Assembly: GCA_035528375.1 (NCBI GenBank) | Contig: DATKYS010000100.1 | Location: 1-33,705 of the forward strand | Reading direction: 5' to 3' | DNA length: 33,705 nt | Source of the DNA: a bacterium | GTDB taxonomy: Bacteria > RBG-13-66-14 | Part shown: piece after piece, positions 1 to 18,967 of the stretch | How positions within the stretch are numbered: the first letter of the stretch is position 1 | Layout of the letters: the number at the start of each line of letters is the position of its first letter | Position numbers and translations under genes: made by a program | Notes under the pieces: generated by a model | What the model was told of the DNA's origin: nothing | The model's input: the letters and a program-made list of their open reading frames with translations, nothing else | Databases searched by the model: none

Positions 1-1
1 T

Positions 2-283
2 GAGACCCTGATGTTCACCGCGGGCGGCGTTTTCCAGTGGGTTGATTGCGATCCCTACATCTATGTGACCACCGGCGTCTTCTACATCGCCTTCCAGCAG
101 GTCGGGAACTACCCGCAGGCCGACTCGGTAGGCGTGGACGCGGTGGCCGGGACGCACGACTGGACCGGCTACCAGGGCTCCTGGGCCCCCTCGACCGCCT
201 TCGGCGACTTCATGATCCGCTGCTACTGGGGTGAGGATTCCGTCACCGAGACCACCTGGGGCGCCGTCAAGGCGTTGTATTAG
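2..283 (+). CDS. WDDG/KALY family secreted protein, C-terminal part (copy A, truncated by window edge)
   Basis: The reading frame is open from the window edge to TAG at 281-283, so only the last 93 codons are visible and the start lies outside. The segment matches the C-terminal half of the complete gene at 529-1143: FYIAFQQ, GVDAVAGTHDWTGYQGSW, FGDFMIRCYW and the terminal TWGAVKALY. Bases 41-100 are identical to 901-960, so the two copies duplicated or converted recently. No Ig-like module lies between the domain and the KALY tail. The function is unknown. By analogy with the complete copies it is a secreted or surface protein. Confidence 0.85.
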   Translation, partial: ETLMFTAGGVFQWVDCDPYIYVTTGVFYIAFQQVGNYPQADSVGVDAVAGTHDWTGYQGSWAPSTAFGDFMIRCYWGEDSVTETTWGAVKALY

Positions 284-528: not shown

Positions 529-1143
529 GTGAAAAAACTGATGTTGCTCATTCTCGTCGCCGCCGCCTTCGCCGCCAACAGCCTGGTTACCTCCGGCATC
601 CCGTTAAACACTCATCCTCAGCCGTCGCCCGAGTATGACTTCTACTGGGATGACGGGATCATGTCCAGCGGTTGGATCTGGTTCACCGGCGGCAACTACT
701 GGGGCGTGCAGTTCGACGAGGTCAAGACCGGCGGCTATCCCGTTTTAGTAGCCACTTATGGCGCAGCCACCTACCCGGACTGGCCGGATTCGACCTTCCA
801 GGGATGCTATATGCACACCTTCTCGGACCTGGGCGGCTACCCCGGCACCGACCTGGGGTATAATTTCCTGCAGTTCACCGAGGGCGGCGTATTCCAGTGG
901 GTTGATTGCGATCCCTACATCTATGTGACCACCGGCGTCTTCTACATCGCCTTCCAGCAGATCGGGAACTACCAGCAGGCCGACTCGATAGGCGTGGACG
1001 CCGTGGCCGGGACGCACGACTGGACCGGCTACCAGGGCTCCTGGGCCCCGACGACCGCTTTCGGCGACTTCATGCTCCGTTGCTACTGTGATGAGGATGC
1101 CGTCACCGAGACCACCTGGGGCGCCGTCAAGGCCCTGTACTAG
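529..1143 (+). CDS. WDDG/KALY family secreted protein (copy B, 204 aa, no Ig module)
   Basis: The GTG start is set by AGGAGG five bases upstream and by the signal peptide that follows (MKKLMLLILVAAAFAANS). The mature part opens with NTHPQPSPEYDFYWDDG and then has WIWFTGGNYWGVQFDEVKTG, a QGCYMHTFSDLGGYPG block and FYIAFQQIGNY. It ends with FGDFMLRCY and the tail TTWGAVKALY. Two Cys (QGC and RCY) are shared by most paralogs and could form a disulfide. Here the usual CYW reads CYC, giving an extra Cys. The domain looks like an all-beta jelly-roll-type domain of secreted proteins (inference from pattern, not a confirmed family). The gene converges with the kinase gene across a shared terminator. 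The function is unknown. Confidence 0.9.
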   Translation: MKKLMLLILVAAAFAANSLVTSGIPLNTHPQPSPEYDFYWDDGIMSSGWIWFTGGNYWGVQFDEVKTGGYPVLVATYGAATYPDWPDSTFQGCYMHTFSDLGGYPGTDLGYNFLQFTEGGVFQWVDCDPYIYVTTGVFYIAFQQIGNYQQADSIGVDAVAGTHDWTGYQGSWAPTTAFGDFMLRCYCDEDAVTETTWGAVKALY

Positions 1144-4200: not shown

Positions 4201-4759
4201 TTTCCGGCGCCAGGCAGTTGACCGTCCCCGGCGCCGTGCGGCGGAGCTCCGGCTCGTCGCCCTCCTCGCGGTCCGCCAGGCCGAAATCGGTGAGCACCAC
4301 ACCCTCCGCCCCCTCGACTCCCCGGCGCAGCATGATGTTCTCGGGCTTCAGGTCGTGGTGGATGTACCCCCGGGTGTGGATGTAGTCCAGCGCGCGCAGG
4401 ACGCCGACGGCTATCTCGTAGATGCGGGCCGGGTCGAGCCTGCCGCCCGTTTCGAACAGATCGGTCCCCTCGACGAGTTCCATGGTGAAGAACGCCCGGC
4501 CGTCTTCGTCCACCCCGAACTCGTACACCCGGCAGAGGTTGGGGTGGCGCAGGTGGGCCAGGGCGGCGAACTCACCGCGCAGGCTCGACCGCAGGCGGGG
4601 CTTCTCGGCGACCTTGTCGGCGCGCAGGAGCTTGAGTGCCCGAGGCTGGCGGTTCTCCACGAGATCCAAAACCGCAAAGACGCGGCCCATACCCCCCCGG
4701 CCGAGCTCGCGCTGGACCTGGTACCGTCGGGCGATGACCCAGGGTGACGGGTCGGTCAT
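1223..4759 (-). CDS. Large Ser/Thr protein kinase with AAA-type ATPase and TPR-like repeats
   Basis: The predicted protein is 1178 aa. Residues about 12-280 form a Hanks-type kinase: glycine loop GRGGMG (20-25), Lys43 in ALKLL, catalytic loop HHDLKPEN (134-141, Asp136), DFG (158-160) and APE (184-186). The HRD arginine is His, so it is a non-RD kinase and may not need activation-loop phosphorylation. A P-loop ATPase follows, with Walker A GEAGSGKS at 324-331 and a probable Walker B at AVVFDGD. The C-terminal half is rich in Ala/Leu/Arg helical repeats of TPR type. The layout resembles PknK-like and other kinase-STAND regulators, which sense signals through the repeat region (family knowledge). 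No transmembrane segment is evident, so it is probably cytoplasmic. It is transcribed alone. The ATG is not preceded by a clear Shine-Dalgarno sequence. The substrate is unknown. Confidence 0.93.
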   Translation of the reverse strand: MTDPSPWVIARRYQVQRELGRGGMGRVFAVLDLVENRQPRALKLLRADKVAEKPRLRSSLRGEFAALAHLRHPNLCRVYEFGVDEDGRAFFTMELVEGTDLFETGGRLDPARIYEIAVGVLRALDYIHTRGYIHHDLKPENIMLRRGVEGAEGVVLTDFGLADREEGDEPELRRTAPGTVNCLAPEILSGAAYDHRVDLYALGVSLYFAATGAYPFDAADGREVIRRHLTLPPPPPSELNPTLPEPLEHLILRLLAKRPDKRFRDANTVIRAINAWAGRSFEYQTPSTAESFLLAPRIVGHDALFEEVLREVTEPLGGLVVIQGEAGSGKSRLLRELRYRCQLAGADLWFVELGASSDPLGELIRRIAHSTAVGPDLRREAGSVLARSWPPLAGLWGVESAPALGPDGEVERLLRTTAGLLDHLGRAVVFDGDTEGALETARRLGQLCQRIPVIVSTEEENPPGRVYHLAPLDEARVAELIESMLGETPPRGLADFVHRTAGGNPLFIAETLRQLIDSGELRRWHGSWEVDLLGAAAAGVPREIKGLILRRLQSLSPAARTTAEILALAAWKPTLEELGALVDDPGQLAGSLRELGSKGLLQMRSGNRPALVTTSLARTLSDNRNRATLLHDRLADFLESGNRMYAPHGYHRLYGSDRGKAVRGGLDYVNRLVELGGFTEARGALTRLRTVARGADLVRVELLTSKVHRRLGETGRAAAAAFHALEGSRGRERGEAYLELGRATAHQGRYEQALGYYDAALSCTDDPLFTLGTGAERVKVLLELGRFGEALELGGALVKRAGSLEYPESWFVREVHARTLFLAGRLAEAEHAYRALYRQALGAGDFPGLWSAGRGRGLTQLSLGRNRRGLVLLRNSCWLALQRADALGTVQSVVPLAVGYLVNLRPRRAIAALKLGRDEIEHRPLPPLQVELYTGLATAYRYRGDLGRAAHYAGRAVELAEGSESVRLRWSAFFTRGMARLELGDWGGVEEMLDRLEGAPEHLGALLGGRLAWERGDFGTARSELLKALGDSPLPVALPEWDTARGYLARVEMEAGNLGPAEELLEPVDEGTPTDLGQLEGRLALVEFYFNQNETDYAVQLLRGAVRASGRGGFVDQLRRSLHLAARLAERQGDAGSRSLLLKEARRLLRWMVHRLPRGARNGFLARHEPAGLRAEKP

Positions 4760-5104: not shown

Positions 5105-7018
5105 ATGCCCACGCCCGCCCCGAAGCCTGTTTTTTTCCGGGAGACCCTGCGGCTGGCGCTCCTCGGCGCCCTGGCCGCCTACGTCCACGTAGCATTCTTC
5201 TACGTCGCGAACTGGGTTTCCACCGGCTCCACCCCCGGGTGGGAGCCCATCGTGGGCGGCTTCTGGGGCGTCCTGCGCAACCTGTCGGCCGCGCTCTTCT
5301 TCCACCCCGCCCTGGGATTCGTCGCGGGCCTGGTCGTCGGCGCCCTGTGCACGCTCGCCGCCGGGCTCCTCCGCCTGGACTCCGACCGCCGGAGGACGGC
5401 GGGCGTCGTCGCCGTGGCGGTCACCGCCTTCGCCGTACTGGGGCTCCCCTGGCCCCCGTCGGAGATATTCACCCGCAACCTCTTGGCCGTGGGTTACGCG
5501 GTGAAGCTCCTCCTGGGCGTCGGCTTCGTCTGGGCCGCCCTCCGGGCGGAGAGAGTCGTCGGCGCCGTCGCCCGTATCGCCGGATTCGCGCTCTCCGGCT
5601 CCGCCCTCCTGTGGGTCCTCTTCGCCCTCGTCTTCCAGGGCCTCTTTACCTCGAACGAGACGAAAACCGCCGTCCCGCCCGGCCCCAACGTGGTGCTCAT
5701 CCTGTCCGACGCCCTGCGGGCCGACGTCACCTCGCTCTACGGCGGGAAGGTGCCGACGCCGAACCTGGAGCGGCTGGCCGCGCGCGGGGTGACCTTCGAG
5801 CGGTGCTTCTCGACTTCGTGCTGGACCATCCCCGCCGTGACAGCCATGTTCACCGGCCTGGCCCCCGAGGTGACCGGCATGGACTCCTTCATTTCCCGCC
5901 TGCCCCGGCTCCCGTACCTGCCGGAACGGCTGGCGGACGCCGGTTACCGCACCTGGGCCATGATGGGTAACCCGCTCCTCTCTCCCAAGGCCGGCTTCGA
6001 CCGAGGGTTCGACCGGTACCTCTCCTACGACGAGAACTTCTACGGCCAGGGCTTCCTCGGTGATTCCGGGGACTCCATATACAACGAGGTCGCCCTCGCT
6101 GTGAACCGGTTGCTGACGGACCTCGACCCCGAGGGCACCGTCGCCCTGGGGCCCCGCGACGCCCTCGAGATGCTCCGCTCCCTCGACCCCGCCGGCGGCG
6201 CGTTCCTCTACGTCCACCTCTTCGACCCCCACGCCCCCTACCGCCCGCCGGAGCGTTTACTCCCGGAAACGGGCTACGAGGGGCGATACGAAGAGGAGAG
6301 CCTGGACTTCCGCGACCACGCCGATGAGCTGACCGGGGAGGACCTGGCCCAGCTCAAGCGGCTCTACGAGGGCGAGGTGCGGCTGGTGGACGAGTTCCTC
6401 GGGCGGGCGCTGGACATCGCCGACGACCGGGGGCTGTGGGAGAACACCGCGTTCATTTTCCTTTCCGACCACGGGGAGGAGTTCATGGAGCACGGCGGGC
6501 TGACGCACTCAGGGGTAAACCTCCAGCACGAGCTGACCCACGTGCCGCTGGTCGTGTACTGGCCCGGCAGGCTCGATGGCGGGGGAAGGGTCACCGGGAC
6601 GGTCTCGCTCTGCGACCTTTTCCCCACCGTCTTAGATGGTCTGGGCCTGGAAGGCGAGATGGAACCGGGCGACGGCCGGAGCCTCTTCGAGCCCGTCCCG
6701 CGGGACCGCGCGGTTTTCGCCCAGCGCTGCCTGGACGAATGCGGCCGGTCCTTCGATTCCGACTTCGTGGTTCGCGGGGGGGTCGCGCTCTTCGTCAACC
6801 GGACGTCGGGCGTCCGCGAGCTGTACCTGGACTACCCCGACCACACCGGGAACGCGCTGATCGGGCACCGGGAGCTGGCGGAGCGGATGGAGCTTCTGTT
6901 GGACGAGTGGCACTCCGAGAATGACGCGCTCTCCGAGCGCCTCGGCGCGGTGAGGGCCGGGGGGACCGTGGACCCCGCCCAATTGGAGAAGCTGCGCTCC
7001 CTGGGCTATCTACAGTAG
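5105..7018 (+). CDS. Membrane-anchored sulfatase-fold hydrolase/phosphotransferase (paralog 1)
   Basis: The 637-aa protein has an N-terminal membrane region (several hydrophobic segments between residues 15 and 182) and a C-terminal alkaline-phosphatase/sulfatase-superfamily domain from about 195. Metal-ligand motifs are visible: NVVLILSDALRAD (Asp202, Asp207), HLFDPHAPYRPP (371-382), FLSDHGEEF (Asp455, His456) and HELTHVPL. The nucleophile segment reads CWTIPAVTAMFTG. Aligned on the TG, Thr241 takes the place of the Cys/Ser that becomes formylglycine in true sulfatases, and the CxPxR motif is absent. This resembles Thr-nucleophile relatives such as lipoteichoic acid synthase and phosphoethanolamine transferases, so transfer of a phospho-alcohol to an envelope glycan or lipid is more likely than sulfate hydrolysis (inference). 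It probably forms an operon with the paralog downstream. No strong Shine-Dalgarno precedes the ATG. Confidence 0.9.
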   Translation: MPTPAPKPVFFRETLRLALLGALAAYVHVAFFYVANWVSTGSTPGWEPIVGGFWGVLRNLSAALFFHPALGFVAGLVVGALCTLAAGLLRLDSDRRRTAGVVAVAVTAFAVLGLPWPPSEIFTRNLLAVGYAVKLLLGVGFVWAALRAERVVGAVARIAGFALSGSALLWVLFALVFQGLFTSNETKTAVPPGPNVVLILSDALRADVTSLYGGKVPTPNLERLAARGVTFERCFSTSCWTIPAVTAMFTGLAPEVTGMDSFISRLPRLPYLPERLADAGYRTWAMMGNPLLSPKAGFDRGFDRYLSYDENFYGQGFLGDSGDSIYNEVALAVNRLLTDLDPEGTVALGPRDALEMLRSLDPAGGAFLYVHLFDPHAPYRPPERLLPETGYEGRYEEESLDFRDHADELTGEDLAQLKRLYEGEVRLVDEFLGRALDIADDRGLWENTAFIFLSDHGEEFMEHGGLTHSGVNLQHELTHVPLVVYWPGRLDGGGRVTGTVSLCDLFPTVLDGLGLEGEMEPGDGRSLFEPVPRDRAVFAQRCLDECGRSFDSDFVVRGGVALFVNRTSGVRELYLDYPDHTGNALIGHRELAERMELLLDEWHSENDALSERLGAVRAGGTVDPAQLEKLRSLGYLQ

Positions 7019-7026
7019 AGGTTGCC

Positions 7027-8937
7027 GTGGAAAAAAGGATACGGTTCGACAAGGTTTTGCACGGAAGTTGGCGCATGGCGCTTCTGGGTGCGTTGGGCGG
7101 TTACATCTTCCTGGTCTACTTCTACGTTTCCGACTGGGTCGCCACCGGTACACTCCAGGGCTGGAATCCTATCGTCAACGGCTTCTGGGGCGTTCTGCGG
7201 AACCTTTCCGCCGCGCTCTTCTTCTACCCGGCGGTCGGCCTCGCCGTCAACCTCGTCCTCGGCGCTCTGATGACGCTCGTTACCGGCCTCATCGGCCTCG
7301 ACGAGAAAAATCGGCGTCGAGTCGGCGTGATCGCGGTGGGCGTCGTCGCCTTCGCCGTTCTGGGCCTGCCCGTATTTTGGGAACGGGACCACCTTCAGTG
7401 TATTTTCACCGTCGGTTACGTCGTCAATCTGGCGATGGGAGCCGGCTTCGTTTATTTCGCACTGCGACTGCCCGAGCTCGTAGAGGGTATTTCCCGGTGG
7501 GCCGGTTGGGTCCTGGCCACCTCGGCAGTCCTCTGGTTCGCCTTCTGCTTTATCTTTCCTTCCACCTTCTTCCCGGCGGATCGCGATAACCGCACACCGC
7601 CCGGCCCCAATGTGGTCGTCTTCCTCTCCGACGCCCTCCGGGCCGACGTCAGTTCGCTCTACGGAGGCGCCGTACCGATGCCCAACCTGGAGCGGCTCGC
7701 CGCCCGCGGGGTCACCTTCGACCGCTGCTTCGCCCCCTCGAGCTGGACCATCCCCGGTGTCGTCGCGCTCTTCACCGGCCTGGCGCCCGAGGTGAGCGGG
7801 ATGGATTCCGTCGGAGCATTCCCCCCGAGTCTGCCCTACCTGCCCGAGCAGCTCTCCCGCCGCGGCTACCGCACGTGGTGCATGATGGCCAACCCCCTGT
7901 TGACGCCGGAACTGGGCATCAGCAGGGGTTTCGACCACTACGGCCTCCAAACTTTGTACTTTTACGGGCAGGGCTTCCTGGAGCACGGTCGGTCCCTCTA
8001 CGATTCGGCCGCCTTCGGATTGAATCGTATTCTGTGTGCGCTCGACTATGAGCGCCTGACCAACCTGGGTTTCGAGGCCTCCCTGGACTTGCTCCGCTCG
8101 CTCGATTCGCGGGGCGGAGACTTCGTCTACCTCCACCTATACGACCCCCATGCGCCCTACCGCCCCCCGAAGCGTTTCCTGCCGAAGGATGGTTACGAGG
8201 GTCCGTACGCTGAGAACAGCGGGGACTTCCTCGATCACAGGGACGAGCTGACCGAAGAGGACGTGGCGCGGCTCAAGCAACTGTACGAGGCCGAGGTGCG
8301 GATGGTGGACGAGGTCCTGGGCCGGGCGTTGGATGTCCTCGACGACCGGGGCTCGTGGGAAAACACGGTCTTCATCTTCCTGGCCGACCACGGGGAGGAG
8401 TTCGCCGAACACGGCATGATCGAGCACTTCAACGTCAACCTGCAACACGAACTTACCCACGTACCCCTGGTCATTTACTGGCCCGGCAGGTTCGAGGGCG
8501 GGGGACACTTCACCCGACCGGTGGGGCTGGCCGACGTCTACGCTACTCTCGCCAACGGCTTAGGGGTCGCGTACGACGAGACGACGATCAACGGCCGATC
8601 GCTCATCACCTCTTCTTTCGAGGAACGGCCCGTCTTCGCCCAGCGATGTATGAACGAGGAGGACGAACACGTCCGCTCCGACTTCGTCGTCCGCGATGAA
8701 GCCGCGCTCTTCGTGAACTATGATGACGACATTGAGGAGCTCTACCTGGACTACTACTCAAACCGGGAGAATGTGGCCGATGATAACCCGGATCTGGTGG
8801 CCGAACTCAAGGCGCTCATCAGCGGATGGCATGAGCGCAACGCGGAATTGATCGAACACTACGGGACGGGGGGCGACGTGGGGCCGGTGGATCCGGAACA
8901 CTTGGAGCAGTTGCGGGCGGTGGGGTACATCCAATGA
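7027..8937 (+). CDS. Membrane-anchored sulfatase-fold hydrolase/phosphotransferase (paralog 2)
   Basis: The 636-aa protein is collinear with its upstream neighbour over its whole length. It shares the membrane part (GFWGVLRNLSAALFF), VFLSDALRAD (Asp202, Asp207), the nucleophile segment SWTIPGVVALFTG with Thr241, HLYDPHAPYRPP, FLADHGEEFAEHG and a closing LRAVGYIQ. The GTG start at 7027 lies 8 bases after the upstream stop, and a GAGG ribosome binding site overlaps that stop, so the two are probably co-translated. The membrane region is better conserved than expected for a simple anchor (GNPIV/GFWG area), hinting at a shared membrane-bound substrate or partner. The 3' end converges on the deacetylase gene with only 5 bp between them. 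The exact substrate is unknown. Confidence 0.9.
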   Translation: MEKRIRFDKVLHGSWRMALLGALGGYIFLVYFYVSDWVATGTLQGWNPIVNGFWGVLRNLSAALFFYPAVGLAVNLVLGALMTLVTGLIGLDEKNRRRVGVIAVGVVAFAVLGLPVFWERDHLQCIFTVGYVVNLAMGAGFVYFALRLPELVEGISRWAGWVLATSAVLWFAFCFIFPSTFFPADRDNRTPPGPNVVVFLSDALRADVSSLYGGAVPMPNLERLAARGVTFDRCFAPSSWTIPGVVALFTGLAPEVSGMDSVGAFPPSLPYLPEQLSRRGYRTWCMMANPLLTPELGISRGFDHYGLQTLYFYGQGFLEHGRSLYDSAAFGLNRILCALDYERLTNLGFEASLDLLRSLDSRGGDFVYLHLYDPHAPYRPPKRFLPKDGYEGPYAENSGDFLDHRDELTEEDVARLKQLYEAEVRMVDEVLGRALDVLDDRGSWENTVFIFLADHGEEFAEHGMIEHFNVNLQHELTHVPLVIYWPGRFEGGGHFTRPVGLADVYATLANGLGVAYDETTINGRSLITSSFEERPVFAQRCMNEEDEHVRSDFVVRDEAALFVNYDDDIEELYLDYYSNRENVADDNPDLVAELKALISGWHERNAELIEHYGTGGDVGPVDPEHLEQLRAVGYIQ

Positions 8938-11430: not shown

Positions 11431-11507
11431 GGCGGAGTAGCTCAGCCGGTTAGAGCACACGGCTCATATCCGTGGAGTCAAGGGTTCGAGTCCCTTCTCC
11501 GCCACCA
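11431..11507 (+). tRNA. tRNA with CAT anticodon, probably elongator tRNA-Met
   Basis: The cloverleaf is complete: acceptor GGCGGAG/CTCCGCC (11431-11437 and 11497-11503), D stem GCTC/GAGC, anticodon stem CACGG/CCGTG with loop CTCATAT (anticodon CAT at 11465-11467), T stem AAGGG/CCCTT with TTCGAGT, and an encoded ACCA. It is not the initiator: the 1-72 pair is G-C and the anticodon stem lacks the three G-C pairs. A tRNA-Ile decoding AUA through lysidine also has CAT and cannot be fully excluded, but the overall sequence looks like elongator Met. Confidence 0.93.
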
Positions 11508-11555: not shown

Positions 11556-12566
11556 TCAGTACAGCGCCTTGATTTCGCCCCAGGTGCAGTTCTCCACTCC
11601 CGGATTGTCCTCGGTTCCGAAGCTCCAAACGATGTCGTGGCGGGTTTCGTTGCCAAACGCGTCGGCCAGGCCGGCGGCCACGGTGCAGGTGATGACGTCG
11701 GCGTAGGGCAGGTCCACATCGGGCATGAAGGTGCAGACAACGTCGAGGGGGTCCGTGTCGTCAATGTACAGGTCCCCCGATATCACGCCGGTCGGCGAGG
11801 GGCCGTCGGTACTGAAGGCCAGGGCGAAGCCGTGGACTTTCTTCGAGGTGTCCTCGACGGTGAACTCGATGGTCGCCACGTCCACCCCGGAGATGTCGTC
11901 CACCACGTGGAATGTGATTATCATGCCCACGGGCACGCCCTCGGCGCCGTCCTCGGGGTCCATGTCGGTCACCTCGGGCGGACGGAAGTCCTCGCCGGGG
12001 TCGTCCTCCCAGTAGCAACGGAGCATGAAGTCGCCGAAGAGTGTGGTTCTGCCCCAGGAGCCCTGGTAACCCGTCCAGTCATGCGTACCGGATACCGCGT
12101 CCACGCCCATCGAATCACAATTTGGATAGTCGCCGAACTGCTCGAAGGCGACGTAGAAGGTGCTGGTGGACAGGGGGACGGCGGTGTCGAGCCACTCCAT
12201 GTAGCCCGGCTCATCGAATCCCATATAAGTCCGGTCGAGGTCCACGCCGGGATACCCCCCGTCGTCGTCGAAGACATGCATGTAGCAGCCCTGGTAGGTG
12301 CCGTCGGGCCAGTTCGGGTATGTCACGGCCCCGTAGGCGGTGACCAGGGCGTCGGCGACACCGCCGGTCTTCTGGTCGTCGAACTGGACGGCCCACATGT
12401 CGCCGCCGGTCCACCAGCACCACCCGCTGGTCAGGATGCCGTCGTCCCAGTAGAACTCGTATTCCGTCGGCGGGCCGGGGTGGGCGTTACAGGCGGGTCC
12501 GGTGGTGGTTAAGGCGTTGAAGGCCAGGCATGGCGCTACGACGAACAACAAAAGCAGTCGTTTCAT
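11556..12566 (-). CDS. WDDG/KALY family secreted protein with one Ig-like module (copy C, 336 aa)
   Basis: The ATG at 12566 starts a signal peptide (MKRLLLLFVVAPCLAFNA) and has GGGGG a few bases upstream. The longer frame would need a TTG inside the promoter-proximal leader. Residues about 28-188 are the WDDG domain (EYEFYWDDG 35-43, QGCYMHVFDDDGGYPG, FYVAFEQFGDY, FGDFMLRCYW). Residues about 197-319 form an Ig-like/Big_5-type module (PPEVTDMDPEDGAEGVPV, FHVVDDISGVDVATIEFTVE, GLADAFGNET). The protein closes with CTWGEIKALY. It is the first gene of the tandem cluster, tail to tail with the tRNA. The function is unknown. Big_5-like modules are common in surface and adhesion proteins. Confidence 0.9.
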   Translation of the reverse strand: MKRLLLLFVVAPCLAFNALTTTGPACNAHPGPPTEYEFYWDDGILTSGWCWWTGGDMWAVQFDDQKTGGVADALVTAYGAVTYPNWPDGTYQGCYMHVFDDDGGYPGVDLDRTYMGFDEPGYMEWLDTAVPLSTSTFYVAFEQFGDYPNCDSMGVDAVSGTHDWTGYQGSWGRTTLFGDFMLRCYWEDDPGEDFRPPEVTDMDPEDGAEGVPVGMIITFHVVDDISGVDVATIEFTVEDTSKKVHGFALAFSTDGPSPTGVISGDLYIDDTDPLDVVCTFMPDVDLPYADVITCTVAAGLADAFGNETRHDIVWSFGTEDNPGVENCTWGEIKALY

Positions 12567-12594
12567 GTGCCCCCACTTTCCCAACACGACTTAT

Positions 12595-12623
12595 AAAATA
12601 CTACATTTTCTCTCCGGGTGCAA
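12595..12623 (-). promoter_or_regulatory. Predicted promoter of copy C
   Basis: On the minus strand, TTGCAC (-35, 12618-12623), a 17-bp spacer and TATTTT (-10, 12595-12600). The spacing matches the other family promoters, but this one lacks their TGC before the -10. Confidence 0.5.
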
Positions 12624-12669
12624 GAAGAGGGACGACCGCGGCCGCTCCTCATCCAGTTTGAAAAATCTT

Positions 12670-13299
12670 CTAGTACAACGCCTTAACCCGCCCCCAGGTG
12701 ATCTCCTCGACGGCGGGCAGCCCGTCCTCCCAGTAGCAGCGGAGCATGAAGTCACCGAACATGGTGGTGGGGGCCCAGGAGTCCTGGTAGCCGGTCCAGT
12801 TGTGCGTACCGGCCGCGCCGTCCACGTAGATTGAATCGCAGTTCGAGTAGCTACCTATCTGCTCGAAGGCGATGTAGAAGGTGCCGGTGGTCACGTTGAG
12901 GGGATCGGTCTCCGGGGGTGTCCACTCGAATCCGCTGATCTCGAGCGGGCAGTAGGTGCGGTCCAGCTCGCCGCCCGGATAGCCGCCCAGGTCCCCGAAG
13001 GTGTGCATGTAGCAGCCCTGGCCCGACCCATCCGGCCAGCCCGACGAATAGGAGTAAACACCGTAGAGGTTGATCACGCCGGGCTCGCCGCCGGTTTTGA
13101 CATCGTCGAACTGCACGGCCCAGTAGTTGCCGCCGCCGGTGTACCAGCACCAGCCGCTGCTCATAATGCCGTCGTCCCAGTAGAACTCGTACTCCGTGGG
13201 GGGCTGGGGATGGGCGTTCGGGGGGGCGCTGACGGTCTGCACGGCGTTGGCGGCCAGGGTCGCCGCGGCGAGAAACAGTATCCAGAAAAGCTTTTTCAT
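12670..13299 (-). CDS. WDDG/KALY family secreted protein (copy D, 209 aa, no Ig module)
   Basis: The ATG at 13299 is preferred over two GTG codons just upstream, because GAGGAG then lies at a normal distance. The signal peptide is MKKLFWILFLAAATLAANA. The domain runs from EYEFYWDDGIMSSGW through FDDVKTGG, QGCYMHTFGDLGGYPG, FYIAFEQIGSY and FGDFMLRCYWEDG. The tail ITWGRVKALY follows directly, with no Ig-like module. Compared with copies B and I the loop after the YGPG block is longer (TPPETDPLNVTTGT). The genes on either side contain Ig modules, so module content varies from neighbour to neighbour. The function is unknown; it is presumably exported. Confidence 0.9.
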   Translation of the reverse strand: MKKLFWILFLAAATLAANAVQTVSAPPNAHPQPPTEYEFYWDDGIMSSGWCWYTGGGNYWAVQFDDVKTGGEPGVINLYGVYSYSSGWPDGSGQGCYMHTFGDLGGYPGGELDRTYCPLEISGFEWTPPETDPLNVTTGTFYIAFEQIGSYSNCDSIYVDGAAGTHNWTGYQDSWAPTTMFGDFMLRCYWEDGLPAVEEITWGRVKALY

Positions 13300-13358
13300 C
13301 ACCACTCCTCGTCAATCAGTAGTTCGAAGGATACTAGCCTAAGGATATCCTCATTTAT

Positions 13359-13388
13359 AGTATAACGTCCCGGCGTTCAATTTTCCAA
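13359..13388 (-). promoter_or_regulatory. Predicted promoter of copy D
   Basis: On the minus strand, TTGGAA (-35, 13383-13388) lies 18 bp from TATACT (-10, 13359-13364). An alternative reading is TTGAAC with TATAAA at 15 bp. The region is A/T-rich and lies just after the terminator of copy E. Confidence 0.4.
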
Positions 13389-13394
13389 GCAATA

Positions 13395-13426
13395 AAAAAG
13401 GCGGCCGCTCGGCCGCCCGTTTTTTT
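13395..13426 (-). terminator. Terminator downstream of copy E
   Basis: GCGGCCG (13401-13407), two-base loop and CGGCCGC (13410-13416), flanked by A6 on one side and T7 on the other, form a strong hairpin. The A run on the plus strand gives the T tract for minus-strand transcripts coming from copy E. Confidence 0.85.
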
Positions 13427-13440
13427 ATCCAACGAGAATC

Positions 13441-13475
13441 GGTACAGCGCCTTCACACACCCCAGTTCGTCAAAA
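13441..13475 (-). pseudogene. 3'-end relic of a WDDG/KALY gene
   Basis: On the minus strand this stretch reads LGCVKALY and is then followed by an Arg codon instead of a stop. On the plus strand, GTACAGCGCCTTCAC is identical to the 3' end of copy G (near 16217), and the next bases differ at only a few positions. Nothing upstream of it is recognisable; it abuts the spacer behind copy E. It is best explained as the leftover end of a deleted paralog. Confidence 0.6.
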
Positions 13476-13499
13476 CCGCCCCCGCCCCGCCCGCGGGTG

Positions 13500-14912
13500 C
13501 TAGTAGAGCGCCTTGATCTCGCCCCAGGTGCTGTTTTTCACCCCGACGTCCTCGGTCGAGAAATCCCAGACGATGTCATTGTGGGTTTCGTTGCCCAGCG
13601 CGTCGGCCAGGCCGGCGGCCACGGTGCAGGTGATGGTGTCGGTATAGGGCAGGTCGTCGTCGGGAGTGAATTTGCAGACGACGTCGAGGGGGTCTATGTC
13701 GTCAACGTGCAGGACCCCCGATATCACGCCGGTCGGGGAAAGGCCGCCGACGCTGAAGGTCGGGGCGAAACTGTGGATGTTCCTCGATGTGTCCTCCACG
13801 GTGAACTCGATGGTCGCGACGTCCACCCCGGAAAAGTCGTCCCACACGTGAAAGACGATCGTCGTCTCCACGGGCACGTCCTCGGCGCCGTCGGCGGGGT
13901 TCATGCCGGTCACCTCGGGCGGGCTGAAGTCCTCGACGGGTTCGCCCTCGGTCGTGAAATCCCAGACTACGTCATGGTCTGTTTCGTTGCCAAGTATGTC
14001 GGCCAGACCGGCGGCCACGGTGCAGGTGATGACGTCGGCGTAGGGCAGGTCCGAGTCGGGGGTGAAGGTGCAGGCGACGTCGAGGGGGTCCGTATCGTCA
14101 ATGTACAGGACCCCCGATATTAAGCCGGTCGGGGAGAGGCCTCCGACGCTGAAGGCCAGGGCGAAACTGTGGATGTTCCTCGATGTGTCCTCCACGGTGA
14201 ACTCGATGGTCGCCACGTCCACCCCGGAGATGTCGTCCACCACGTGAAAGGTGATCGTCGTTTCCGCGGGCACGTCCCCGGCGCCGTCGGCGGGATTCAT
14301 GCCGGTCACCTCTGGCGGGAGGTAGTCCTCGACGGTGTCGTCCTCCCAGTAGCAGCGGAGCATGAAGTCGCCGAAGAGGTCCATCGGGGACCAGTCTCCC
14401 AGGTAGCCGGTCCAGTTGTGCGTGCCGGCCTCGGCGTCCACGCCCACCGAGTCGCAATACGGGTAATCGCCGAACTGCTCGAAGGCGATGTAGAAGATAC
14501 TGGTGGACAGGGCGACGGCGGCGTCAATCCACTCGAAGGAGCCTGGATCGGTGAACCCGAGATAGGCGTGGTCGAGGTCCGCGCCGGGATAGCCGCTCAC
14601 GTCATCGAAGACGTGCATGTAGCAGCCCTGGTAGGTGCTGTCGGGCCAATCGGGGTAAGTCGCGGCTCCGTACGCGGTGACCGTGCCGTCGGCGACCCCG
14701 CCGGTCTTCTCGTCGTCGAACTGAACGGCCCAGTAGTTGCCGCCGGTGTACCAGCACCAAAAATAGCTTAAGGTGCCGTCGTCCCAGTAGAACTCGTACT
14801 CCGCCGGCGGATCGGGGTGGGAGTTGACGGGCGGCCCGGTGGCGGACACGGCCAGCCACGAAGCCGCGACTCCCGTGACTAACACGAAGATGAAAAGAAA
14901 CATCTTTCGCAT
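13500..14912 (-). CDS. WDDG/KALY family secreted protein with two Ig-like modules (copy E, 470 aa)
   Basis: The longest family member. The ATG follows GGGGGAGGAT and begins a signal peptide (about 1-25). Residues about 36-192 are the WDDG domain (FYWDDG 41-46, QGCYMHVFDDVSGYPG, FYIAFEQFGDY, FGDFMLRCYWEDD). Two Ig-like/Big_5-type modules follow at 199-322 and 331-454. They are a tandem duplication with a 132-residue period and both contain EVTGMNPADG, SGVDVATIEFTVEDTSRN and ISGVL. The protein ends STWGEIKALY. The second module plus tail matches copy F almost exactly (TEDVGVKNSTWGEIKALY), so it may have come from a neighbour by recombination. An extended rod-like surface protein is plausible (inference). 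Confidence 0.9.
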   Translation of the reverse strand: MRKMFLFIFVLVTGVAASWLAVSATGPPVNSHPDPPAEYEFYWDDGTLSYFWCWYTGGNYWAVQFDDEKTGGVADGTVTAYGAATYPDWPDSTYQGCYMHVFDDVSGYPGADLDHAYLGFTDPGSFEWIDAAVALSTSIFYIAFEQFGDYPYCDSVGVDAEAGTHNWTGYLGDWSPMDLFGDFMLRCYWEDDTVEDYLPPEVTGMNPADGAGDVPAETTITFHVVDDISGVDVATIEFTVEDTSRNIHSFALAFSVGGLSPTGLISGVLYIDDTDPLDVACTFTPDSDLPYADVITCTVAAGLADILGNETDHDVVWDFTTEGEPVEDFSPPEVTGMNPADGAEDVPVETTIVFHVWDDFSGVDVATIEFTVEDTSRNIHSFAPTFSVGGLSPTGVISGVLHVDDIDPLDVVCKFTPDDDLPYTDTITCTVAAGLADALGNETHNDIVWDFSTEDVGVKNSTWGEIKALY

Positions 14913-14962
14913 GACATCCTCCCCCGTGTCTGAAATCGAAAGTTTTATGAAAATGCACGTTA

Positions 14963-14991
14963 TTTATAGCATAAAAAAAGAAGTCGGGCAA
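14963..14991 (-). promoter_or_regulatory. Predicted promoter of copy E
   Basis: On the minus strand, TTGCCC (-35, 14986-14991), a 17-bp spacer ending in TGC, and TATAAA (-10, 14963-14968). The same elements precede copies F and G. Confidence 0.65.
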
Positions 14992-15054
14992 GGTGTGCCA
15001 TCCAGGACGTAGTTAGGGGCGGTTTGGCAACCGCCCCCGTCCCGCCAGCGGGTG

Positions 15055-16071
15055 CTAGTAGAGCGCCTTGATCTCGCCCCAGGTGCTGTTTTTCACTCCG
15101 ACGTCCTCGGTCGAGAAATCCCAGACGACGTCCTGGCTGGTTTCGTTGCCCCGTTCGTCGGCCAGGCCGGCGGCCACGGTGCAGGTGATGGTGTCGGTAT
15201 AGGGCAGGTCGTCGTCGGGGGTGAAGGTGCAGACGACGTCGAGGGGGTCCGTGTCGTCAATGTACATGACCCCCGATATCACGCCGGCCGGGGAGAGACC
15301 GCCGGCGCTCAAGGCCACTGCGAAGCTGTGGATGTTCAACGAGGTGTCCTCCACGGTGAGCTCGATGGTCGCCACGTCCACCCCGGAGATGTCGTCCACC
15401 ACGTGGAAGACGATCGTCGTCTCCACGGACACGCCAACCTCGCCGTCATCGGGGTCCATGCCGGTCACCTCGGGCGGCTGGAAGTCCTCGATGGGTTCGC
15501 CATCCCAGTAGCAGCGGAGCATGAAGTCACCGAAAGACGTGCTGTTACCCCAGGAGCCCTGGTAACCGGTCCAGTTGTGCGAGCCGCTGGACGCGTCAAC
15601 GCCCATCGAGTCGCAGTTCGGGTAACCGCCGACCTGTTCGAAGGCGATGTAGAAGGTGCTGGTGGTCAGGGCGACGCCGGCGTCAAGCCACTCGAAGGAG
15701 CCTGGATTGGTGAACCCGAGGTAGGTGCGGTCGAGGTCCGCGCCGGGATACCCCCCGTCGTCGCCGAGCACGTGCATGTAGCAGCCCTGGTAGGTGCTGT
15801 CGGGCCAGCCGGGGTAGGTCGCGGCCCCGTAGGTGTTGACCACACCGTCGGTGATCCCGCCGGTCTTCTCGTCGTCGAAATCCACCGCCCAGTAGTTCCC
15901 GGCGGTCATCCAAACCCAGCCGCTGCTCAAAGTGCCGTCGTCCCAGTAGAACTCGTACTCCGCCGGCGGACCTGGGTGGGCGTTAAAGGCCGGTCCGGTG
16001 GTGGACAGCGTCAGGGGATACGCCGCGGCACCCATGACCAGCACGACGATGGCAATGAACACCTTTCGCAT
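15055..16071 (-). CDS. WDDG/KALY family secreted protein with one Ig-like module (copy F, 338 aa)
   Basis: The ATG at 16071 is preceded by AGGAGGATCTC, and a signal peptide follows (MRKVFIAIVVLVMGAAA). A longer open frame upstream runs through the promoter and is rejected. The WDDG domain has EYEFYWDDGTLSSGW, WAVDFDDEKTGG, QGCYMHVLGDDGGYPG, FYIAFEQVGGY and FGDFMLRCYWDG. One Ig-like module follows (PPEVTGMDPDDGEVGV, SGVDVATIELTVEDTS, GLADERGNET), then STWGEIKALY. The signal peptide and 5' flank are nearly identical to those of copy G, showing that gene and spacer were duplicated together. The function is unknown. Confidence 0.9.
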   Translation of the reverse strand: MRKVFIAIVVLVMGAAAYPLTLSTTGPAFNAHPGPPAEYEFYWDDGTLSSGWVWMTAGNYWAVDFDDEKTGGITDGVVNTYGAATYPGWPDSTYQGCYMHVLGDDGGYPGADLDRTYLGFTNPGSFEWLDAGVALTTSTFYIAFEQVGGYPNCDSMGVDASSGSHNWTGYQGSWGNSTSFGDFMLRCYWDGEPIEDFQPPEVTGMDPDDGEVGVSVETTIVFHVVDDISGVDVATIELTVEDTSLNIHSFAVALSAGGLSPAGVISGVMYIDDTDPLDVVCTFTPDDDLPYTDTITCTVAAGLADERGNETSQDVVWDFSTEDVGVKNSTWGEIKALY

Positions 16072-16123
16072 GAGATCCTCCTCCTGTAGTTGAAAGGACA
16101 AATTTATTCCCTTCCGACATACT

Positions 16124-16152
16124 TTTATAGCACATAAAATGGACACTGGCAA
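16124..16152 (-). promoter_or_regulatory. Predicted promoter of copy F
   Basis: On the minus strand, TTGCCA (-35, 16147-16152), a 17-bp spacer ending in TGC, and TATAAA (-10, 16124-16129). It lies about 52 bp upstream of the start codon. Confidence 0.65.
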
Positions 16153-16215
16153 GATGTTTTGTCCAAGGCGCAGCCGGGAAGGCGGTTTGGCGACCGCCCC
16201 CGATCTCCACGCGCC

Positions 16216-17238
16216 CTAGTACAGCGCCTTCACCCGCCCCCAGGTGGTGTCTTCCACCGACTGGTAATCCTTGGTAGTAAAGGTCCAGACGAAATCCTCA
16301 CCCATCCTATTACCACAACAATCAGCCAGTGTACCATCCACGGTGCAAGTAATAGTTTCACCTTCAGGCAGGTCGTCGTCAGGGAAAAAGATACAAACCA
16401 CGTCGTTGAGGTCGTCATCGTCTATGTATAGAGTTCCCGATATCACACGGATCGGGGAGAGGCCACCGATGTTGAAGGCCAGGGCGAAGCTGTGGACGTT
16501 CTTCGAGGCGTCCTCCACGGTGAACTCGATGGTCGCCACGTCCACCCCGGAGATGTCGTCCACCACGTGGAAGACGATCGTCGTGTCCACGGGCACGTCC
16601 TCGGCGCCGTCGGCGGGATCCATGCCGGTCACATATGGTGAGCTGTCATCTTCTGGTATCTCATCGTTCCAGTAGCAACGGATCATGAAATCACTGAAGG
16701 CGGTTGACGGGGCCCAGGAGCCCTGGTAGCCGGTCCAGTTGTGCGTCCCGGCCACGGCGTCCACACCAATGGCGTCTGTATACGGGTAATTCCCAAACTG
16801 CCGGAAGGCGATGTAGAAGACACCACCATCCACAAAGACCGGGCTGCCGGGATAAACCCACTCGAAGACTCCACCCTGGGTGAACCCCAGGTATTCGTTG
16901 TCGAGGCTGCTCCCCGGATAGCCGCCCACGTCCTCAAAGGTGTGCATGTAGCAACCCTGATACGTCGAGTCCGGCCAGTCTGGATAGGCCACAGCGCCAT
17001 ATTTAGTGACGTAGCCATCAGCGCCGCCGGTCTTCGCCTGGTCGAATTTAACGGCCCAGTAGTTCCCGGCGGTGAACCAGACCCAGCAGCTACTCACGAT
17101 GCCGTCGTCCCAGTAGAACTCGTACTCCGTCGGCGGGCCTGGGTGGGCGTTAAAGGCCGGTCCGGTAGTGGACAGCGCCGGGGGATATGCCGAGGCGCCC
17201 ATGACCAGCACGACGATGGCAATGAACACCTTTCGCAT
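16216..17238 (-). CDS. WDDG/KALY family secreted protein with one Ig-like module (copy G, 340 aa, mosaic)
   Basis: The ATG is preceded by GAGGAGGATGTC; a signal peptide follows (MRKVFIAIVVLVMGASA). The WDDG domain contains EYEFYWDDGIVSSCW, WAVKFDQAKTGG, QGCYMHTFEDVGGYPG, FYIAFRQFGNY and FSDFMIRCYWND. The first half of its Ig-like module (DPADGAEDVPVDTTIVFHVV) is almost identical in DNA to copies C, E and F. The second half (about 16262-16440) is clearly different (DDDLNDVVCIFFPDDDLP, GTLADCCGNRMGED) and is visibly A/T-richer, as are parts of the WDDG domain. The gene looks like a mosaic of a divergent allele and a converted central segment. It closes TTWGRVKALY. The function is unknown. Confidence 0.9.
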   Translation of the reverse strand: MRKVFIAIVVLVMGASAYPPALSTTGPAFNAHPGPPTEYEFYWDDGIVSSCWVWFTAGNYWAVKFDQAKTGGADGYVTKYGAVAYPDWPDSTYQGCYMHTFEDVGGYPGSSLDNEYLGFTQGGVFEWVYPGSPVFVDGGVFYIAFRQFGNYPYTDAIGVDAVAGTHNWTGYQGSWAPSTAFSDFMIRCYWNDEIPEDDSSPYVTGMDPADGAEDVPVDTTIVFHVVDDISGVDVATIEFTVEDASKNVHSFALAFNIGGLSPIRVISGTLYIDDDDLNDVVCIFFPDDDLPEGETITCTVDGTLADCCGNRMGEDFVWTFTTKDYQSVEDTTWGRVKALY

Positions 17239-17290
17239 GACATCCTCCTCCTGTAGTTGATATTACAAGTTTATTCCTTTCCGACACAGT

Positions 17291-17319
17291 TTCATAGCAC
17301 ATAAAATGGACACCGGCAA
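17291..17319 (-). promoter_or_regulatory. Predicted promoter of copy G
   Basis: On the minus strand, TTGCCG (-35, 17314-17319), a 17-bp spacer ending in TGC, and TATGAA (-10, 17291-17296). The spacer bases are identical to those of the copy F promoter. Confidence 0.6.
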
Positions 17320-17382
17320 GATGTTCCGTCCAAGATGCAGCCGGGGGGGCGGTTTGCGACCGCTCCCCGTTCTCGCCAAGAC

Positions 17383-18000
17383 TCAGTACAGAGCCTTCCC
17401 CCGACCGCAAATAATGTCCTCGACGTTCGGATTTTCATCGTCGGAGCAGCAGCGCAGCAGGAAGTCCCCGAAGAGGGTCGTCGGGGACAGGAGCCCCGGC
17501 AGCCGGTCCAGTTGTGCGTCCCGGCCACGGAGTCCACGACCATCGCGTCGGTCGAAGGGTAGTTGCCTATCTGCTGGGAGATGTAGAAAACACCTGGTAC
17601 CGACTGCGGTGGGATTACATCCACACACTGGTACACGCCGCCCTGGGTGAACTGGAGAAGACCCCACCACGGGTCATCACCGGGATAGCCGCCGAGGTCA
17701 TCGAAGGTGTGCATGTCAACGCCCTGGGAGGAACCGTCGGGTCAACCGGTGTAGGTGCATGCACCGTAGAGAGTGACCACGCCGGGTCTCCCGTCGTTCT
17801 TAACATCGTCGAACTGCACGGCCCGGTAGTCGCCGCCGGTGAACCGGACCCAACCGCTGGACATGATGCCGTCGTCTCGGTAGAACTCGAACTCCTCCGG
17901 CGGCTGGGAATGGGCGTTGAGGCAGATGCCGGTGGTCGCCACGGTGTTGGCGGTCAGGGCCGCCGTGGCGAGAAAAAATGAGCCAAAACGCCTTTCTCAT
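17383..18000 (-). pseudogene. WDDG/KALY family pseudogene (copy H)
   Basis: A family-length gene without Ig module is readable only by changing frame. It starts MRKAFWLIFS at ATG 18000 with a GGGGG ribosome binding site. It shifts frame at an A6 run (17973-17978) and continues as TTGICLNAHSQPPEEFEFYRDDG. It meets an in-frame TGA at 17742-17744 where paralogs have Trp (WPDGS). It then continues as MHTFDDLGGYPG to AGTHNWTG. A one-base loss near 17486 shifts it again to LSPTTLFGDFLLRCCSDD. The end reads ICGRGKALY instead of TWGRVKALY, YW of WDDG is YR, and a residue is missing in FYIAFQQ. Several independent lesions mean it is not expressed as a full protein. It could still donate sequence to its neighbours. 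Confidence 0.85.
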
Positions 18001-18247
18001 TGTTCCCCCTTGGTGTGTGACAAGAATCTTGAACAGGGTAAAAGAACACCCTCACCTATAATATTTAACACGTTCTGACTCCCGTTTCAGAATAAAAAAG
18101 GCCTTGCTCCGATTCCGAGCCAACCGGTGAATCGTCCACCGCCTGGAGCGGTATGACCCGCCTCCCCGACTCTCCGCTCACCGTACCCGGCCCGCTATCC
18201 ATAAAAAAAGGGCGGCTCCGAGAGCCGCCCGTAGGTACCGGATGTGT
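18001..18247. other. Intergenic region upstream of pseudogene H
   Basis: No gene is seen. The part next to H is A/T-rich (18057-18070) and may hold its old promoter. A second A-run near 18092-18099 followed by a weak GC hairpin may be a decayed terminator. The functional terminator of copy I is at 18203-18230. Confidence 0.4.
18203..18230 (-). terminator. Terminator of copy I
   Basis: On the minus strand the stem GGGCGGCT/AGCCGCCC (18223-18230 with 18210-18217) has a five-base loop and runs into T7 (A run at 18203-18209). It lies 18 bp after the stop codon. Confidence 0.88.
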
Positions 18248-18865
18248 CTAGTACAGGGCCTTGACGGCGCCCCAGGTGGTCTCATTGACGGCAACCTCAT
18301 CCCAGTAGCAACGGAGCATGAAGTCGCCGAAGGCGGTCGAAGGGGCCCAGGAGCCCTGGTAGCCGGTCCAGTCGTGCGTCCCGGCCACGGCGTCCACGCC
18401 TATCGAGTCGGCCTGCGGGTAGTTCCCGACCTGCTGGAAGGCGATGTAGAAGACGGCGTCGGTCACATCAATGACGGGATCGGAATCTATCCACTGGAAA
18501 ACGCCGCCCGCGGTGAACATCAAGTTCTCAAACCCCAGGTCTGTGCCCGGGTAGCCGCCCAGGTCCGAGAAGGTGTGGAGGTTGGTGCCCTGGAAGGGGG
18601 TGTCCGGCCAACCAGGATAGGTCACGGCACCGTAAGTGTTTACCGTACCGGTAGATCCGCCGGTCTTGACCTCGTCGAACTGCACGCCCCAGTAGTTGCC
18701 GCCGGTGAACCAGATCCAACCGCTGGACATAATCCCGTCATCCCAGTAGAACTCATACTCGGCCGGGGGCTGAGGATGAGTGTTGAACGGGATGCCGGAG
18801 GTAACCAGGCTGTTGGCGGCGAAGGCCGCAACGGCAACAAGCAGCAATAGCACGAGCTTCTTCAT
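18248..18865 (-). CDS. WDDG/KALY family secreted protein (copy I, 205 aa, no Ig module)
   Basis: The ATG at 18865 lies after GGAGGAAATGT and begins a signal peptide (MKKLVLLLLVAVAAFAANS). The longer frame overlaps the promoter and is rejected. The protein is closest to copies A and B at the other end of the window, sharing NSLVTSGIP, WIWFTGGNYWGVQFDEVKTGG, FYIAFQQVGNYPQADSIGVD and TTWGAVKALY. The otherwise conserved QGCYMHTF block reads QGTNLHTF, so the first of the two shared Cys is lost. It is the promoter-distal end of the cluster and is followed upstream by the DUF2723 gene in the same direction. The function is unknown; presumably exported. Confidence 0.9.
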   Translation of the reverse strand: MKKLVLLLLVAVAAFAANSLVTSGIPFNTHPQPPAEYEFYWDDGIMSSGWIWFTGGNYWGVQFDEVKTGGSTGTVNTYGAVTYPGWPDTPFQGTNLHTFSDLGGYPGTDLGFENLMFTAGGVFQWIDSDPVIDVTDAVFYIAFQQVGNYPQADSIGVDAVAGTHDWTGYQGSWAPSTAFGDFMLRCYWDEVAVNETTWGAVKALY

Positions 18866-18938
18866 ACATTTCCTCCGGATGTTGTTGGTTCGCAAAATCG
18901 TTAGCCCCGTCGGAGAAGCCGACAGGTAACACAAGGAA

Positions 18939-18967
18939 AATCTAGCACCCCGTCTGGTGAATGTCAA
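18939..18967 (-). promoter_or_regulatory. Predicted promoter of copy I
   Basis: On the minus strand, a consensus TTGACA (-35, 18962-18967), a 17-bp spacer ending in TGC, and TAGATT (-10, 18939-18944). It overlaps nothing; the DUF2723 stop codon is just 10 bp away. Confidence 0.7.

Follow-up and report, generated by a model that had tools for sequence, protein, structure and literature searches.

C-terminal tags on exported bacterial proteins, such as LPXTG, PEP-CTERM and the C-terminal domain (CTD) of the type IX secretion system (T9SS), each point to a protein sorting machine. T9SS signals of 43-55 residues function in Prevotella intermedia, and GFP secretion depends on the final 22 residues of HBP35 (PMC11969387). 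Distinct CTD classes, in turn, use distinct shuttle barrels (PMC12618676). Here, we analyzed a window of 33,705 nucleotides, contig C100 of a 144-contig, 2.63 Mb Candidatus Coatesbacteria metagenome-assembled genome (MAG; the source genome, labeled G000), that carries a tandem array of genes encoding secreted proteins with a WDDG motif, hereafter the WDDG family. We show that the KALY ending of these proteins is part of a longer C-terminal tail common to dozens of unrelated exported proteins, and not a signature of the WDDG family. We found no description of this tail, or of Coatesbacteria secretion, in the literature searched.

A common C-terminal tail on unrelated exported proteins

The last ~13 residues of the array proteins follow the consensus V-x-x-[TS]-[ST]-W-G-x-[IV]-K-A-L-Y, with varied synonymous codons encoding the tail residues across the array. 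Searching the source genome for WGx[ILV]K followed by 3-6 residues to the stop, we recovered 66 open reading frames (ORFs) ending in V-x-x-[TSA]-[ST]-W-G-x-[IV]-K-A-x-[FY]-stop. Positions outside the search pattern were also fixed (numbered from the W): 60 of the 66 have V at -5, all 66 have S or T at -1, 55 have A at +5 and 50 have F or Y at +7. The initial annotation had noted a signal peptide, an EYEFYWDDG-type motif and terminal KALY as common features of the array proteins; all three occur in every complete copy (the motif as E-Y-[ED]-F-Y-W-D-D-G), and KALY loses its value as a family mark given its genome-wide occurrence. Judged by composition, a signal peptide was detectable in 56 of the 66 tail ORFs; contig ends truncate five of the other ten, and in three more a single TGA separates the ORF from a same-frame signal peptide upstream.

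The bodies preceding the tail are diverse and include WDDG jelly rolls, Big_5 immunoglobulin (Ig) domains, DNRLRE/CBM96 domains, a right-handed beta helix and an Omp28-like thioredoxin fold, together with NTF2-like lipoproteins and ThuA/GATase-like domains assigned by reading the sequences. These bodies form 13 unlinked groups even under single linkage, which joins 50 of the 66 step by step where they have Ig or other domains in common; given this merging, Pfam and NCBIfam assignments and sequence reading were also used to judge how many body families there are.

The tail changes its form from lineage to lineage. A strict pattern (WGx[hydrophobic]KAx[FY]-stop), controlled by its reversed version, matched 28, 26, 26 and 13 ORFs in four genomes of the source genus, 4, 2 and 1 in other genera of the source family and none in other families, with zero reversed matches everywhere. 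Other families carry a similar tail in which I, L or V replaces W, with 142 and 118 matches in two f5 genomes (0 reversed) and 21, 16 and 20 in f4, f3 and f2 (0, 1 and 2 reversed, respectively). As read from the proteins, the f5 tail is V-x-P-[TS]-S-[LI]-G-R-V-K-A-L-[FY]-[RKY], and NHL-like propellers and the WDDG family carry it alike. In one genus (genome G008) the tail is often IEETTWGQIKA[LM], and many tails there end in L or M without the terminal aromatic residue. Such a shift, common to different bodies within a lineage, would be expected if they shared a receptor. Separately, contigs C47 and C43 of G004 (L149-L151) hold large arrays of NHL-repeat-like proteins with an SLGRVKALF[RK] tail.

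Fold and distribution of the WDDG family

The initial annotation described exported paralogs in tandem expansion, recognized no characterized homolog, and named a jelly-roll fold, confinement to one phylum and repeated copies in relatives as marks of a lineage-specific surface family; these expectations of fold, distribution and copy number are borne out as follows, whereas the surface location and the diversifying or dosage selection that it also proposed are putative. The structure model of the WDDG domain (gene F with 52 relatives) predicts a beta sandwich of jelly-roll type with a mean predicted local distance difference test (pLDDT) score of 86 and a core above 90; a first model from 7 sequences (pLDDT 50) was discarded in its favor. 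The domain has no significant match in Pfam or NCBIfam, no PDB fold match at E <0.001, and no significant profile or structure match to a characterized carbohydrate-binding family, and the searches revealed no characterized full-length homolog. PDB 5hzl matched weakly (E 0.0015), and the match to the lectin 6gxr (31 bits), in which no individual stretch was significant, was set aside. Discoidin/CBM-type jelly rolls and the Lmo2445-like C-terminal domain (PF22416) belong to the same general beta-sandwich class, although profile similarity to them is weak and partial (40-50 residues, E 0.003-0.1) and below the curated cut-off.

Beyond the longer tail, the initial annotation had also not included the Big_5 Ig domain (PF13205), which exceeds the Pfam gathering cut-off of 23.6 bits in four of the six array genes (A, C, D and E; 29.1-63.6 bits) and also in proteins outside the array. 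It lies between the WDDG domain and the tail, once in A, D and E and twice in C, and is lacking in B, F and both copies at the window start. Big_5 is therefore one body module of the array proteins rather than a common feature, and the WDDG domain is distinct from it.

Profile search placed the family in 13 of the 14 Coatesbacteria genomes, with 1-20 matches each. Arrays recur in G011 (L108), G012 (C65), G005 (a cluster at ~1.817-1.825 Mb) and G006, and the source genome holds further arrays with Ig and WDDG domains on C20, C33, C51 and C130. In GTDB, scanned in a way that detects close relatives only, the nearest relatives were all Candidatus Coatesbacteria; a single match in a 'Chlorobaculum' MAG (L111) fell by chance in an MscS-like channel and was set aside. 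IMG/VR yielded no relative. As judged from sequence, the array is an expansion of an exported jelly-roll family that is phylum-specific as far as the 14 genomes and the close-relative GTDB scan extend.

A putative sorting tag and its alternatives

Considering the above, it is probable that the array encodes small exported jelly-roll proteins, some with Ig domains, of a larger tag class, and that the tail acts as a body-independent C-terminal sorting tag. On balance, we also lean toward the ~13-residue motif being a new, phylum-wide Coatesbacteria sorting signal, which would mark tens to more than 100 exported proteins per genome for a candidate envelope machine working alongside the canonical CTD route of the T9SS. 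Sec would export a tail protein via its signal peptide, a phylum-specific envelope receptor would read the tail, and this receptor would route or anchor the protein, with the cell surface as the most likely destination; in the array, one of the cargo families using this route would have expanded. Several observations weigh against such a role. No receptor was identified, nor was dedicated machinery found adjacent to the tail genes. At least three tail proteins also carry a lipobox, so that the tail is not the sole anchor signal, and tail subtypes partly track body family, as expected from vertical inheritance. Furthermore, the tail is a low-confidence short helix in the structure model, hydrophobic moments did not support reading it as an amphipathic helix, and the genomes surveyed for it are all Coatesbacteria.

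The same genomes encode T9SS components. Type-A CTD proteins occur in all 14 (23-67 matches each, 48 in the source genome), as do C25 peptidases (at the family level) and PorV-family genes, the latter with 6-14 matches per genome (e.g., G000 C104, C74, C143, C2 and C88) and neighboring Peptidase_C25 genes in several genomes (e.g., G000 C104). SprA was detected in 11 of the 14, PF14349 having no match in G003, G005 and G008; in three genomes checked, SprA reached 323-336 bits against the TIGR04189 equivalog (cut-off 200) and matched SprA in the PDB at 6e-23. Moreover, tail genes lie directly upstream of sprA in G004 and G006. It is plausible from these gene contents that tail proteins use the T9SS, and a tentative reading, itself a special case of the sorting tag, is that the tail is a minimal T9SS signal whose bearers, like type-A CTD proteins, pass via SprA and are collected by a PorV-family barrel. 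The short P. intermedia signals and the HBP35 result are in line with it; by analogy, the existence of signals down to 43-55 residues and of class-specific shuttle barrels makes a PorV-like tail receptor a reasonable guess, and some PorV-family paralogs may be shuttles for separate cargo classes. As both tags are present in all 14 genomes, their co-occurrence cannot discriminate this possibility.

The composition of the two protein sets speaks against it. Using a CTD profile built here, we found the type-A CTD on none of 160 distinct tail ORFs, and no body was common to these 160 and a small sample of 33 CTD ORFs. Among the 66 tail proteins of the source genome, none matched TIGR04183 at E <=0.01 in NCBIfam, the type-B CTD (TIGR04131) or any other NCBIfam sorting model, including the CTERM models. 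Some tail proteins are lipoproteins, and the tail does not contain the G-containing motifs B and D; the shortest natural signal known is about four times as long. Since the tail and CTD sets are disjoint, these Coatesbacteria genomes are predicted to use two separate C-terminal tags. As a side observation, sprA is followed by two MotA/TolQ/ExbB-type genes at two f5 loci (L145:5123-12570 and L147:5797-14259), and in L147 two ExbD-type genes come after that pair; these genes are a possible T9SS motor replacing GldL/GldM.

Tail proteins are also shorter, with a median of 263 residues vs ~670 for the listed CTD open frames. This size, the mainly non-enzymatic and beta-rich nature of the cargo and its frequent occurrence in paralog arrays would suit a docking peptide that assembles small surface proteins together or onto a scaffold (S-layer or fiber) instead of a transport signal. 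We regard this as unlikely, given that no scaffold protein was identified and that lipoproteins also bear the tail. Less likely still, the tail could be a 3' gene end that was inherited or recombined but has no function of its own, spread by duplication and gene-end exchange: many carriers do lie in tandem arrays, and shared domains do chain most of the bodies, yet the tail occurs in five families of the phylum on unrelated bodies, its residues are kept despite the varied codons, and it shifts across whole lineages. PDZ-type and tail-specific proteases typically bind hydrophobic C-termini ending in an aromatic residue, but a turnover or maturation signal for an envelope protease is very improbable, because dozens of proteins would not normally all keep such a signal constant over 13 residues and the aromatic is missing from many G008 tails.

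Array genes and neighboring features

On the minus strand at 11556-18967, ORFs and the family profile confirmed six intact genes of the same family arranged head to tail, with a pseudogene between the last two (Table 1), as the initial annotation had described; its two further copies at the window start are likewise present, one of them cut by the contig end. Profile E-values run from ~1e-42 (contig-cut copy) through 1e-56 (pseudogene) up to 1e-102, so these matches are not due to chance. A separate relic, which had also been proposed, was not found in a sensitive six-frame profile scan; the 3' end of the pseudogene (17386-17490, '...VEDIICGRGKALY') is in a different frame from the rest of it, and this out-of-frame piece is probably what gave rise to that claim.

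Table 1 Coordinates of WDDG family copies in the window and of tail ORFs split by TGA.
Feature	Position	Strand	Content
Contig-cut family copy	2..283	+	C-terminal half only; tail WGAVKALY
Complete family copy	529..1143	+	tail WGAVKALY 1117-1140
Array gene A	11556..12587, likely start 12566	-	signal peptide; WDDG domain; Big_5 ~11613-11984; tail WGEIKALY 11559-11582
Array gene B	12670..13305	-	signal peptide; WDDG domain; no Ig domain; tail WGRVKALY 12673-12696
Array gene C	13500..14912	-	signal peptide; WDDG domain; two Big_5 ~13950-14318 and ~13548-13919; tail WGEIKALY 13503-13526
Array gene D	15055..16152, likely start 16071	-	signal peptide; WDDG domain; Big_5 ~15109-15480; tail WGEIKALY 15058-15081
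Array gene E	16216..17238	-	signal peptide; WDDG domain; Big_5 ~16273-16650; tail WGRVKALY 16219-16242
Pseudogene of array family	17386..17975	-	profile match; in-frame TGA; frame change ~17490; 3' end ICGRGKALY
Array gene F	18248..18967, likely start 18865	-	signal peptide; WDDG domain; tail WGAVKALY 18251-18274; sequence behind confident structure model
TGA-split tail ORFs	L085:3396-3899 (with upstream frame); L093:3051-3503, 3842-4297; L190:4570-5025	-	
TGA-split tail ORFs	L154; L051:6647		

Three contigs break within near-identical WDDG genes (window 1-283, G000 C1:1-579 and C88:9443-9721), so the assembly probably underestimates the true copy number and array length. A tRNA-Met gene (window 11431-11507) directly adjoins the array, and adjacent paralogous membrane proteins resembling sulfatases or LTA synthases, ~637 residues each as read from the ORFs, are encoded at 5105-7018 and 7027-8937.

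In several exported tail proteins, a single in-frame TGA interrupts the reading frame, and its surroundings are conserved, reading P-x-GG-TGA (twice in G000 and in another genus), PF-x-GC-TGA (f5) or W-TGA-GYC (an Omp28-like protein). Stem-loops follow the TGA in some of these genes. From these contexts, the split proteins look like candidate exported selenoproteins.

Comparison with known sorting signals

Among known signals, the BAM beta-signal, which is the final strand of a transmembrane outer-membrane barrel with an aromatic residue at its end, was considered and rejected, as the bodies are jelly rolls, Ig domains, propellers and NTF2-like folds, the array domain is modeled as soluble, and many G008 tails end in L or M. 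PEP-CTERM and LPXTG tags resemble the tail in being short conserved C-terminal motifs on many unrelated exported proteins; in contrast, they consist of a motif, a transmembrane segment and a basic end, whereas the tail stops 0-3 residues past the conserved aromatic position, is itself the C-terminus and contains no hydrophobic or transmembrane segment of the kind that defines a sortase or exosortase tag. The T9SS type-A CTD (TIGR04183, Por_Secre_tail) is likewise a body-independent C-terminal tag on Sec-exported proteins of the same genomes, although it folds into an Ig-like beta sandwich of 70-80 residues that contains motifs B, D and E, while the tail spans ~13 residues on a different set of proteins. 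A further parallel is found in the short CTDs of P. intermedia (PMC11969387), where shortened signals stand beside long ones in one organism, as here; they nevertheless keep three strands and motifs B, D and E, none of which the tail has. The tail thus shares the hallmarks of these systems, i.e., dozens of unrelated exported proteins, a strict C-terminal position, lineage-wide shifts and a protein set disjoint from that of a known tag. Should it prove to use the T9SS, all other natural signals of that system would be far longer; as a mark on a large set of predicted exported proteins, it offers a concrete bait for finding its receptor.

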